NCBI GenBank assembly: GCA_020054095.1
Contig: JAGVMA010000050.1
Coordinates: forward strand, 1-64,000
Source of the DNA: Bacteroidia bacterium
GTDB taxonomy: Bacteria; Bacteroidota; Bacteroidia; JADZBD01
Length of the DNA: 64,000 nt
Reading direction: 5' to 3'
In this document: piece by piece, positions 20,499 to 25,228 of the stretch
Position numbering within the stretch: position 1 is the first letter of the stretch
How the letters are laid out: every line of letters starts with the position of its first letter
Program-made: the position numbers and the translations under genes
Notes under the pieces: generated by a model
Seen by the model: only the letters and a program-made list of their open reading frames with translations
The model's database searches: none
What the model was told of the DNA's origin: nothing

Positions 20499-21077
20499 TT
20501 ATTGCTTGAGCAAAACTCCCTCTTTGTAAAATTCTGTTTTTTCGATGTTGCCATCTTTGGTATAAAAAATCCATTTGCCTTCTTGCTTGCCATCTTTATA
20601 GTTACCCATAATCTTGGGAGCTGATGGTTCTAAATAGCTCTCGTTAGTTTCGCCATTTGGAGGCATAATCATTTTGGCTTCGTAAAATTCCTTATACAAT
20701 CCTTCTTTTTTTCCGAGCTTGTAGTTGGTTGTAGATTTTAGTGATTGGTTGGGATAAAAATCTTCGAACTCACCATGCAAGCGCTCTGTGCTTTGCAGCT
20801 TTCCGGCTTTGTAAATTTCCTTAAGTGTTAAAATAGTTTTCTGGTCGTAGTAGAACCAATTACCTTCTTTCAATCCGGTTTTGTACTGGCCCACCACACT
20901 CACCACCGAATCGAGGTAATAGTAAATTATTTTCCCATCAATTTGTCCGTTCACATAATTACCTTTTGTTTTGGGTTGTTTCTTTGCGTAATATTCTATC
21001 ATAGGACCATTAAGAATATCCATTTTCCATGTTTCTTGTTTGGCTATTGAAGTATCAAGATTATAAACAGTCCACAC
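20499..21077 (-). CDS. MORN/YwqK-like protein, C-terminal fragment after frameshift
   Basis: 192 codons from a GTG at 21077. It holds MORN-type repeats (GNYVNGQIDGKIIYYY, GQYKTGLKEGNWFYYDQK, NYKLGKKEGLYKEFYE, GNYKDGKQEGKWIFYTKDG), the pattern annotated as YwqK-family antitoxin-like in Bacteroidota, though no toxin is present and most such proteins are probably not antitoxins. The fragment has no signal peptide of its own. Its first residues continue the repeat begun in the upstream reading frame: with one added A in the A7 run at 21082-21088 the frame reads KGKKNGVWTVYNL without interruption. Together the two pieces make a ~327-residue secreted repeat protein. Confidence 0.75.
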   Translation of the reverse strand: MWTVYNLDTSIAKQETWKMDILNGPMIEYYAKKQPKTKGNYVNGQIDGKIIYYYLDSVVSVVGQYKTGLKEGNWFYYDQKTILTLKEIYKAGKLQSTERLHGEFEDFYPNQSLKSTTNYKLGKKEGLYKEFYEAKMIMPPNGETNESYLEPSAPKIMGNYKDGKQEGKWIFYTKDGNIEKTEFYKEGVLLKQ

Positions 21078-21481
21078 ACCATTTTTTTGCCTTTGCTATA
21101 TTCTTCTTGTTTTAATGGGCGCACGTCTTCTGTGAGATAAATCCATACACTATCCTTCACGCGCTCTTTGCCTACAATTATGTATTTGCCCATTGCCATT
21201 AATTCTTTGTTTTCATAAAAAGTTTGGGTACGGCAAACAGTGCCTTTTGCCGAAAACGTATTTACAATTTTAACAACACCTGATGGGTAGTACCACAGAA
21301 AAGTACCCACTTCGTAATCATCTTTAAACTGACCTTCGTATATTTTTTTTTTATTGGCATCGTATTTCACCCAGCGGCCTTGCTTTTTTCCGGCTGCATC
21401 GGTTTTGTTGCTATCTGCCTGCGCCATAGCAGCAACCGAGAATAGTAAAGCAACGAATAGTATATTTAGTTTTCTGTTCAT
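21044..21481 (-). CDS. MORN/YwqK-like protein, N-terminal fragment before frameshift
   Basis: 145 codons. It begins with a signal peptide (MNRKLNILFVALLFSVAAMAQ) and has MORN-like repeats (AGKKQGRWVKYDANKKKIYEGQF, DDYEVGTFLWYYPSG). After KGKK, the last ~13 residues (MVCGLFIILILQ) are unlike the repeat pattern because the frame has shifted at the A7 run (minus strand; T7 at 21082-21088). The zero frame reads GGC AAA AAA ATG, so a canonical A-AAA-AAA -1 slip site is not in register. Sequence error, true mutation and transcriptional slippage all remain possible. Alone, the fragment would be a truncated periplasmic protein. Confidence 0.7.
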   Translation of the reverse strand: MNRKLNILFVALLFSVAAMAQADSNKTDAAGKKQGRWVKYDANKKKIYEGQFKDDYEVGTFLWYYPSGVVKIVNTFSAKGTVCRTQTFYENKELMAMGKYIIVGKERVKDSVWIYLTEDVRPLKQEEYSKGKKMVCGLFIILILQ

Positions 21482-21566: not shown

Positions 21567-21663
21567 GTTTTTATATCTACTTTTTATAAATTAGCTTTTT
21601 AAAACCACCTCATTATGAAAACACCAAACATTAATTTTAATTTTATGTTTTGTTTTTTGCAAT

Positions 21664-23886
21664 ATGCTTAACGCACAAAACAATTGGAAAGTAAACGGGA
21701 ACAACATTAATACTTCTGATTTTTTAGGCACAACAAATAATAAAAACCTTGTAATTAAAACCAACGATACCACACGAATGGTGGTGAAAAAGAATGGCGG
21801 TGTGGATGTAAATGGACAATTGCAAGTGGATAGTTTGCACATAATAGGAGGTTTAAAAATTGGGGCTAACACGCTCTCGATAACAAACAATCCTGATTTA
21901 ATACGCTCTACCAATGGCCAAATTTCATTTGGTGGCAGTGGCGCAAATTTCTTCAACAATATTCGCTTGGGAGTTGGGATACAAAACCCGGTACACAAGA
22001 TTCATATTGGTGATTTAAACCCAAGTGCCTTTGGACAGCCACAGCCGGTAAATTTAGCTTTCGGAAATAACTCGTTATTTAATGGCGGAACAGGATTTGG
22101 AATTACTGATGGTTTTCAGATTGGTATTTTAGGAAACCAAGATGCTGAGTTACGCCAGTTTGAAAATAAAAACATGTTGTTTTTCACTAATAACACCGAG
22201 CGAATTAGAATTTTAAATAACGGATTTGTAGGTATTAATACCTCAACACCAACAAATACATTTGAATTAAACTCAGGAACTGCCAACACAAGTGGTTTTA
22301 AATTTACGCAACTAAATTCTGGTTCGCCTACACAAGTTAATCCCGGAAAAGTATTAAGTGTTGATGCTAATGGTAATGTAATTTTAGTACCACAAACTGG
22401 AGGTGGAAATATAACTGGATGTGGCGGAAATAATAATTTTATCACAAAATTTATCTCAGCTACTACTATTTGTAATAGTCAAATTTACGATGATGCTAAT
22501 CAGGTTTTGATTGGATCAACTACCCCTATTTATTCAGAATCAAAAATAGAAGTAGTAAATAATAATACAGGGGGACGTTATGGCATTACAGCTTCGCTTA
22601 ACGGAGTTACGCCATCTTTAAGCCAATATGTTTTTAATGGGATAATAAATACTGGCCAACATGGAACTCAAAATATTGCTTTTTTTGGCCAAGTTGCCGC
22701 AAATGTTGGTGCATTTCAGAATGTTGGTTCGCAAGTACTTGTTACAGGAACATCTGGATTAAACACCTCCAATGTTGGTTACACTTCCATTGTTTACGGC
22801 TTAAATTCTTTTAGAAATATTGGAATTTCTTCAAGTGCAATTGATGCTTTTTTGACTACAGGAGGCAGTTTCAAATCTACTTCTAATTCAACAAATGGGT
22901 CATCAGCGAGAGGAATTGATGTAGATGCCACTAATGGCGAATATAACTTTGGAATAATTAACACAGTGGGTAACATATCATTGTCTTCAATTGCTAATTA
23001 TGGAATTTACTCAACCATATATGCTAACGGATATGCGCAAAATGGAAATTATGCTGCGATGCTTATTGCACCACCCACCAATGGAAATATAATTAGCTAT
23101 GCCTTATACAGTCAATCTCCTTCGCAAACAACAATAGGGGCATATTTGGCAGGGTATTTTAATGGAAACGTACAGCGAATAGGTTTAGATAATTTCGCCT
23201 CCGATATTAATTTGAAAGAAAACATTGTGCCAATTACTAATGCTTCTGATCTATTATTACAACTGAATCCTGTATCATTTAATTTTAAAAACAGTTCATA
23301 CCCTCAAATGAGTTTTCCTTTGGGGTTACAATATGGATTGATTGCTCAAGAGGTAGAGCCCATATTGCCCCTTTTGGTTTCAAACTCAATACACCCTGAA
23401 CAATTTGACACAGCTGGTAATCAGATTAGTACACGAATTGAATATAAATCATTAAATTATGAGGGATTCATCCCACTTCTAATTAAAGGATTTAAAGAAC
23501 AAGTTATAAAAATGGACTCCTTGGTGGCATTAGTAGATTCTCTAAAAGAATTAATGACTGGAAATAGACGTCTTTTTGAAGACAATACCGCTTCAAATGA
23601 AGAAATAAAACTGTATATTAATGACATGCCTAGACTTGGATATCCTTCTCCAAATCCTAATTCGGGGTACATTGAAGTTCCATACTATATTCCTGAAAAT
23701 TACACAGATGCGAAGCTTGTCTTTCGCGATGCATTAGTTAGTATCATTGGGGAAAAATCATTAACACAAAAAGGATACAATAAACTTCAAGTTGACCTTA
23801 TTGATTTGCTTTCTGGAGTTTATACATGCACTTTAGTTGTTAATAATAAAATTTGTGACTCAAAAAAAATCATCAAATCAAATTAA
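21664..23886 (+). CDS. S74 intramolecular-chaperone (tail-spike-like) protein with T9SS domain
   Basis: 740 codons from the ATG at 21664. A long Asn/Gly/Ser/Thr-rich repetitive shaft is followed by a peptidase S74 chaperone starting at S513 (ASDINLKENIVPI, then FNFKNSSYP and GLIAQEVEPILP), a short coiled coil (VIKMDSLVALVDSLKELM) and a type A T9SS domain (GYPSPNPNSGYIEV ... SGVYTCTLVVNNKICDSKK). As called it lacks a signal peptide. However, codons upstream in the same frame read HQTLILILCFVFCNMLNAQ, an ideal signal peptide, back to a stop at 21616; the only ATG in reach (21615) is one base out of frame. One surplus A at 21618-21621 would restore MKHQTLILIL. The true gene is probably 21615-23886. 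Confidence 0.8.
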   Translation: MLNAQNNWKVNGNNINTSDFLGTTNNKNLVIKTNDTTRMVVKKNGGVDVNGQLQVDSLHIIGGLKIGANTLSITNNPDLIRSTNGQISFGGSGANFFNNIRLGVGIQNPVHKIHIGDLNPSAFGQPQPVNLAFGNNSLFNGGTGFGITDGFQIGILGNQDAELRQFENKNMLFFTNNTERIRILNNGFVGINTSTPTNTFELNSGTANTSGFKFTQLNSGSPTQVNPGKVLSVDANGNVILVPQTGGGNITGCGGNNNFITKFISATTICNSQIYDDANQVLIGSTTPIYSESKIEVVNNNTGGRYGITASLNGVTPSLSQYVFNGIINTGQHGTQNIAFFGQVAANVGAFQNVGSQVLVTGTSGLNTSNVGYTSIVYGLNSFRNIGISSSAIDAFLTTGGSFKSTSNSTNGSSARGIDVDATNGEYNFGIINTVGNISLSSIANYGIYSTIYANGYAQNGNYAAMLIAPPTNGNIISYALYSQSPSQTTIGAYLAGYFNGNVQRIGLDNFASDINLKENIVPITNASDLLLQLNPVSFNFKNSSYPQMSFPLGLQYGLIAQEVEPILPLLVSNSIHPEQFDTAGNQISTRIEYKSLNYEGFIPLLIKGFKEQVIKMDSLVALVDSLKELMTGNRRLFEDNTASNEEIKLYINDMPRLGYPSPNPNSGYIEVPYYIPENYTDAKLVFRDALVSIIGEKSLTQKGYNKLQVDLIDLLSGVYTCTLVVNNKICDSKKIIKSN

Positions 23887-23902: not shown

Positions 23903-25228
23903 GTGAAAAAAATATATAGAGCAATCTTTATTTTATTTATTGTATCTAAACCTTCGCTATCTCAGCTATGGGATGATGTAGGTGGGGGGGTTATTTCAAA
24001 TAATTTTGTAGGGAATGTGAGAAGTTTTGCAATTGACTCGGTAAATAATTTACTTTATGTTGGAGGTGATTTTGACAAAGCTGGTGCTGTTAATAATTGT
24101 TTCAATATAGCTAAATGGAATGGTTTTACATGGGACTCGCTGAGACAAGGTTCTTTCCCAGTTTCCGCTTTACAGTTTTTTAATGGCGAACTGTATGTGG
24201 CTAACTCATTAAGAGTGGAGAAATGGACAGGATCTACATGGAATAGCGTAGGCACAAATAACAGCAATTTTGGGGGCGGTGGCATTTACGATTTCGAAAT
24301 TTATAATAATAAAATAATTGCTGTTGGGAGTTTTTCGTCAGTTGATAATGTTACTGTAAACAGAATTGGACAATGGGATGGAAGCAACTGGACTAGTGCC
24401 GGAACCGGAGCAAACAACACTGTTTTCTGCGCAACTGTATTTAATAGTGAACTTTATATTGGAGGAAGTTTTACTCTTGTTGACGGAATACCAGCGCTAT
24501 ATGTTGCAAAATGGAATGGGAGCGTTTGGCAACAGGTAGGATCGGGCTTACAAGGAAACGTAACAGACCTTTGTGTTTACAACGGGGAGCTTTATGCTTG
24601 TGGAAACAGCTTTAGTGCAGGTGTTAGAATTTTTAAGTGGAATGGCAACAACTGGTCAGGAGCATCTCCGGCAAATTTTCCTGATTTACCGATTTGGGAA
24701 CTTTCTACATACAGTGGCAAATTATTTGCCATTGGTGACTTTGGCAATCCATGTTGCAGAATAGCAGAGTTCGATGGCTTTAACTGGTCTTCAATTAATG
24801 ATCCAGGTCTTGGTGGCATAATTGGATCAACATCAGAAATGATAGTTTTTAACAACGAGCTATACGTTGGGGGCATAGATATTACTTATGCAGGCACTAT
24901 ACCAGTAAACAATATTGCCAAATACGCTTTGCCGGTAAACACTCATCAAACAACTATATTAAATAACCAATTTATTTTACATCAAAACAACCCTAACCCA
25001 TTTTCGGAAAATTCAGAAATCAACTATTTTATCGAAAGCAATTCTAAATCTGCATTTGTTGTTTTTTACAACATGCATGGCGTAGTTATGAAAACCGTAG
25101 AGATAAAAAACTTTGGTGCAGGTAAGATAAATATCTCAGGATTAAATATTAATTCAGGCGTTTATCAATACTCACTATTTGTTGACAATTTATTAATTGA
25201 TACAAAAAAATTCATATTAACTAAATAA
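23903..25228 (+). CDS. Kelch-like beta-propeller protein with T9SS domain
   Basis: 441 residues from the GTG at 23903. An ATG at 23837 is in frame but would overlap the previous gene by 50 bases and bury the signal peptide; the GTG gives KKIYRAIFILFIVSKPSLSQ, a normal signal. The body has about seven repeats of ~40-50 residues, e.g. LYVGGDFDKAGAVNNCFNIA, IIAVGSFSSVDNVTVNRIGQ and ELYIGGSFTLVDGIPALYVA, each closing with W-N/D-G-x-x-W, the pattern of a beta-propeller. The last ~85 residues are a T9SS domain (HQNNPNPFSENSEINY ... NSGVYQYSLFVDN). Surface protein; ligand unknown. Adjacent paralogue follows. Confidence 0.85.
   Translation: MKKIYRAIFILFIVSKPSLSQLWDDVGGGVISNNFVGNVRSFAIDSVNNLLYVGGDFDKAGAVNNCFNIAKWNGFTWDSLRQGSFPVSALQFFNGELYVANSLRVEKWTGSTWNSVGTNNSNFGGGGIYDFEIYNNKIIAVGSFSSVDNVTVNRIGQWDGSNWTSAGTGANNTVFCATVFNSELYIGGSFTLVDGIPALYVAKWNGSVWQQVGSGLQGNVTDLCVYNGELYACGNSFSAGVRIFKWNGNNWSGASPANFPDLPIWELSTYSGKLFAIGDFGNPCCRIAEFDGFNWSSINDPGLGGIIGSTSEMIVFNNELYVGGIDITYAGTIPVNNIAKYALPVNTHQTTILNNQFILHQNNPNPFSENSEINYFIESNSKSAFVVFYNMHGVVMKTVEIKNFGAGKINISGLNINSGVYQYSLFVDNLLIDTKKFILTK

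Follow-up and report, generated by a model that had tools for sequence, protein, structure and literature searches.

A predicted fibre protein with an S74 domain ahead of a T9SS sorting domain in a Bacteroidia bacterium

The window analysed here, a stretch of 64,000 nucleotides from the genome of a Bacteroidia bacterium, harbours an ORF whose product carries an S74 domain followed by a T9SS sorting domain. Since domains of the S74 family are known to cut themselves free from the chain that precedes them, the question arises whether this one does so as well and, if it does, how a shaft that has lost its sorting domain could still be exported. The protein is a combination of known domains for which no published biology was found: the open literature (subscription papers and the architecture pages of domain databases lying outside the scope of the search) yielded nothing on S74 in T9SS cargo or on this architecture, and the T9SS reviews consulted give no description of a self-cutting domain placed between a T9SS cargo and its signal.

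Layout of the ORF and its surroundings

The succession of S74 and a T9SS sorting domain within one ORF, as proposed in the original prediction, was confirmed by the PF13884 (Peptidase_S74) match, by the predicted fold and by alignment to relatives (Table 1). The Pfam match (E=1e-13; 51.8 bits against a cut-off of 22) starts exactly at the Ser of ASDINLKENI which had been named as the first Ser of the domain, the context being A512-S513-D-I-N-L-K518. Phage tail-fibre families of PHROGs match approximately residues 260–629, with phrog_5668 reaching E=9e-18. An AlphaFold2 monomer model of residues 440–740, based on 57 aligned sequences, gives high confidence to S74 (mostly pLDDT >90), to a helix at residues 599–640 and to a beta-sandwich at residues 669–738 (block pLDDT ∼86–96), whereas its shaft part is not confident. 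In the 42-residue helix of this monomer model, which follows S74, 10 of the 12 a/d positions are hydrophobic in the best heptad register.

The C-terminal match to Por_Secre_tail scores 17.8 bits, below the Pfam cut-off of 27, and the sorting domain scores 18.1 bits in NCBIfam, where the cut-off is 23. The assignment was accepted because the model shows a beta-sandwich at this place, because the C-terminal tail aligns with about 40 other tails that follow S74 domains, 30 of which match Pfam Por_Secre_tail, and because PorU (1292 bits) and SprA (2535 bits) are encoded in the genome, in which Por_Secre_tail has at least 150 matches.

Table 1. Features of the S74 gene and its leader, given as positions in the window
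Feature	Position	Strand	Remarks
ATG of signal-peptide-like leader	21615..21617	+	shifted by one base against the ORF frame; same in paralogous fragment G000:C85
Signal-peptide-like stretch KHQTLILILCFVFCNMLNA	21619..21675	+	in the frame of the ORF, without start codon; next residue Q
740-aa ORF	21664..23886 (stop codon included)	+	shaft, S74, helix, T9SS sorting domain
Fibre shaft, residues 1–512	21664..23199	+	from about residue 260 phage-tail-fibre-like
S74 core, residues 513–572	23200..23379	+	Pfam PF13884
Ser513 codon, expected nucleophile	23200..23202	+	alignment to solved S74/ICA domains; invariance
Lys518 codon, expected general base of the dyad	23215..23217	+	alignment; invariance
Long helix, residues 599–640	23458..23583	+	AlphaFold2 model and heptad pattern; predicted trimeric coiled coil
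T9SS type-A sorting domain, residues ∼658–739 (Pfam 663–737, below cut-off)	23635..23880	+	

The listed start of the ORF, ATG 21664, leaves no signal peptide. The frame upstream of it reads KHQTLILILCFVFCNMLNA followed by QNNW, which by eye is a good signal peptide, and no in-frame start codon for this stretch exists in the stop-to-stop frame. Many relatives have the Sec signal peptide expected of T9SS type-A cargo, according to a heuristic; for lack of an in-frame start of its signal-peptide-like stretch, the export of this particular product is uncertain. The genome contains two copies of the leader, the second residing in the paralogous fragment C85 (L049, ∼1678–2050), where the out-of-frame relation is the same and an internal TAA is present. 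Another copy, C28 (L050), starts just behind recQ, lacks its 5' part and a signal peptide, and carries a TAA directly in front of the eight residues (TRKMVKQK) that end its sorting domain. A further S74 gene of this genome, C33, is cut by the contig end.

One rival explanation is built on these irregularities. The gene may be decaying, or its product may be a cytoplasmic protein translated from ATG 21664, and neither T9SS export nor surface release would then apply to it, whatever its relatives do. The out-of-frame ATG 21615 and the damage to the same-genome paralogs C28 and C85 are in agreement with this. However, the 740 codons are free of stops, and the differences from the C85 fragment are mostly silent in the frame of the ORF (dN/dS ∼0.10–0.15 at dS ∼0.5), which indicates that the protein of this frame has long been under constraint. 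Moreover, the out-of-frame leader, being common to this gene and the C85 fragment, is old or was homogenised, and a simple sequencing error behind it is disfavoured for the same reason. For this one gene, decay or a cytoplasmic product seems possible, with a chance that is appreciable and short of even.

A prophage origin of the locus was rejected, as no phage or contractile-system genes were found among the neighbours checked. These encode a subtilase with a sorting domain, MnmA, MORN proteins, propeller proteins with sorting domains and SIS/nucleotidyltransferase/HAD proteins. On the minus strand at 20499–21481, two overlapping ORFs of 192 and 145 aa in different frames both contain MORN repeats and look like one gene split by a frameshift, so that less than 1 kb from the start of the S74 gene the frame is irregular in a second place. 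For the next gene (23903–25228), which codes for a propeller with a sorting domain, GTG 23903 is the probable start, giving the signal peptide KKIYRAIFILFIVSKPSLSQ, rather than the listed TTG 23837, which overlaps the S74 gene.

The Ser-Lys dyad among Bacteroidota S74 domains

Known S74 members cut before a Ser which is activated by a Lys five residues further on, as in endoNF (S911/K916), MyRF (S587/K592) and T5 pb1 (S1264/K1269) (PMC8326128, PMC4690869). A single-sequence search of the PDB gave a weak match to 6F45 alone, and the relationship to solved S74 domains was resolved by a profile of 70 Bacteroidota S74 domains aligned to 6F45, 7DC3, 8JOV, 8HQZ and 3GUD. This alignment, which had been suggested as a check on the original prediction, places S513 and K518 in the catalytic columns, with the residues of endoNF, MyRF and T5 named above, so that the dyad is not absent from the protein; 7DC3 shows D-x-x-x-K after the Ala replacing its mutated Ser. 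The expected scissile bond is Ala512-Ser513. The best Foldseek match of the monomer prediction was 7DC3 (MyRF ICA; E=1e-5), and the endosialidase chaperone 3GW6 (E=2e-4) was among ten matches with E <0.001.

The phage-type oxyanion Arg at position -14 (R897 / R1250 of the phages) was looked for and found neither here nor as a conserved residue of the Bacteroidota S74 set. It is also absent in MYRF and hence does not define the S74/ICA family as a whole; its lack of conservation makes the Bacteroidota group resemble MYRF, where cutting needs ICA trimerisation and no stalk sensor. The protein has Asn at Ser+3 and Phe at the position of MyRF Y615, and in the profile alignment the T5-like fibre 8HQZ likewise has Phe at the latter and a residue other than Arg at the former.

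A survey of S74-T9SS architectures, also proposed at the outset, revealed that a sorting domain often comes after S74, as it does in 56 of 244 Bacteroidota S74 domains. Ser and Lys are both present in 55 of these 56 and in all 188 domains without a sorting domain, and on this count an absent or decayed dyad in T9SS cargo was rejected. In the first sample, 162 distinct S74 domains read from Bacteroidota genome loci, 39 precede a sorting domain, the median distance from the end of the S74 profile match being 35 residues, and the dyad occurs in 38 of them and in 123/123 of the rest. The second sample of 82 further domains was obtained with a profile that begins 12 residues past the Ser, i.e. leaving out the catalytic segment. 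All 82 carry Ser-x4-Lys, including 17/17 in the sorting-domain group, with a script that tolerated a shift of up to 3 residues and a profile that still favours high-scoring domains. Conservation of the dyad as an artefact of a dyad-containing query was rejected on these grounds. The single exception, L086, has E...R in a short ORF of 249 aa, lies before a sorting domain and beside a copy with the dyad, and is a possible natural non-cleaving variant. When genome contigs were searched with one sequence, six loci were found, the nearest being those of Flavobacteriales UBA5422 and Taishania pollutisoli (36%).

Compared column by column, both groups conserve Ser, Lys and one Gly (558) more strongly than any other position of S74. 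Meanwhile, Arg at Ser+3 is present in 44% of the sorting-domain group versus 79% of the others, and the Tyr equivalent to MyRF Y615 in 59% versus 85%. On a quick and poorly resolved S74 tree, the sorting-domain label is scattered, with at least 16 changes, four of them forced by supported branches. A sorting domain that is scattered yet kept suggests that the shaft needs it.

Cleavage, export and the alternatives

The explanation that accounts best for the locus as a whole, and to which an even chance is given, is that of a trimeric fibre exported by T9SS, whose S74 domain cuts and frees the shaft. On this reading, a trimeric fibre protein that is encoded in the chromosome and belongs to the S74 (intramolecular chaperone / ICA) family has been coupled to export by T9SS. 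Its chain would be trimerised by S74 and the helix behind it, whereupon the Ser513-Lys518 dyad would cut Ala512-Ser513 and yield a free shaft trimer, apart from a trimer of S74 and sorting domain, in a way similar to MYRF, whose ICA piece remains on the ER membrane. We infer this cleavage, and infer too that it follows or accompanies passage through the outer membrane, freeing the shaft from a stub held at the surface; alternatively, the cut halves may stay associated until the passage is accomplished.

Part of the case for cutting lies in what mutants of known members do. MyRF S587A and K592A do not cut at all, and crystals of the Ser-to-Ala forms of MyRF and T5 pb1 contained uncut trimers (PMC8326128, PMC4690869). 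Because such proteins still trimerise, retained cleavage is the best explanation for a Ser that hardly varies, and on the pattern of conservation it is likely that self-cleavage has been retained, which is favoured over a dead chaperone.

Several polypeptides that contain a pair of S74 domains, both with the Ser-Lys dyad, fit poorly with simple end-cutting. In L065 the domains lie at 674 and 899, separated by about 115 residues, and a sorting domain comes after the second, at 1059; in L005 they lie at 112 and 321; in L059/L060 they stand directly in tandem and are cut off by the contig end; and L256 combines two S74 domains with a sorting domain. If all of the domains cut, such proteins would fall into three pieces, and if they do not, S74 would be an internal trimeriser. 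Tandem S74 domains with intact dyads inside single T9SS proteins are the best evidence for another rival, according to which S74 is a non-cleaving trimeriser that holds three chains together and is kept in the exported fibre between shaft and sorting domain, PorU trims off the sorting domain and anchors the fibre via its S74 end, and the dyad is structural. The conflict with export would then disappear, and the relaxed positions that assist cutting in MyRF (Arg at Ser+3 and the Tyr), together with the unconserved oxyanion Arg, count against cleavage and for this rival. On the other hand, Ser, Lys and the Gly remain the best conserved positions in both groups, Ser-to-Ala variants of known members fold and trimerise in spite of the missing Ser, and 8HQZ likewise shows Phe and a non-Arg residue at these positions, while cutting is known for T5 itself (PMC4690869). 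A non-cleaving S74 with a structural dyad seems, on balance, somewhat unlikely.

The full form of the release hypothesis, in which Bacteroidota release surface fibres by phage-type self-cleavage, the protein being exported with its sorting domain, S74 trimerising at the surface, the shaft being freed while the stub stays, and tandem cargo releasing several pieces, is regarded as unlikely.

The original prediction that autocleavage would uncouple cargo from secretion stands in part. The dyad is kept in nearly all S74 domains ahead of a sorting domain and the problem is real for the class; export of the present protein, however, had been assumed, and its signal peptide is without an in-frame start. 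According to one proposal, T9SS cargo folds in the periplasm prior to its transport (PMC10202324), and MyRF cuts autonomously and constitutively (PMC3742443). Taken together, the two would have the chain cut before export and the shaft stranded, which counts against cleavage with release. A periplasmic cut upon S74 trimerisation, with the stub alone exported and the shaft as the functional periplasmic product, would accord with both. It would also accord with the finding that, among 101 S74 proteins lacking a sorting domain, 85 have signal-peptide-like N-termini by a simple heuristic and would likewise end in the periplasm, but it gives no reason why a sorting domain is kept on so many divergent S74 proteins, and is considered improbable. 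In the preferred explanation, that of an exported fibre whose shaft is freed by S74, a cut after or during passage, or halves held together, would reconcile folding before transport with the suggested need of the shaft for its sorting domain.

Should the cut be real, T9SS cargo of this widespread kind must cut after export or hold together non-covalently during export: the profile without the catalytic segment detected S74 in 259 of 395 genomes of the class that were searched, and about one quarter of the surveyed S74 domains precede a sorting domain. A cutting-dead Ser-to-Ala mutant would in that event offer an easy way to tell at what stage of outer-membrane passage T9SS cargo folds and trimerises, a timing that a review describes as poorly understood (PMC10202324). 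Should the cut not be real, a catalytic dyad that hardly varies and yet does not catalyse calls for another explanation.

Comparison with known systems

Bacterial use of S74 fibres outside phages is known from extracellular contractile injection systems (PMC8213781), which differ from the present case in that contractile-system genes are missing among the neighbours checked here. With T9SS type-A cargo of the PorV/PorU route the protein shares a probable C-terminal type-A sorting domain, scoring below the cut-offs, and a genome with PorU and SprA; the signal peptide without an in-frame start sets it apart. Phage endosialidase and the T5 L-shaped tail fibre (3GW6; T5 pb1) resemble it in the S74 domain, the dyad at Ser and Ser+5, the shaft upstream and the trimeric coiled coil downstream, the last being predicted here. 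In phages, however, the chain ends with S74, which is discarded, whereas here a sorting domain comes after it, and the oxyanion Arg of the phages is not shared.

By analogy, the closest comparison for how the protein would work is MYRF. It is a eukaryotic transcription factor of the ER membrane rather than a fibre shaft with a T9SS sorting domain, and its cutting is proven, whereas that of the present protein is predicted. Nevertheless, MYRF provides the best fold match and has the Ser-x4-Lys dyad, a coiled-coil trimeriser and no stalk Arg sensor. Its anchor, a transmembrane segment, follows the cutting domain on the C-terminal side, as the sorting domain does here, and cutting sets the N-terminal part free (PMC3742443, PMC8326128).
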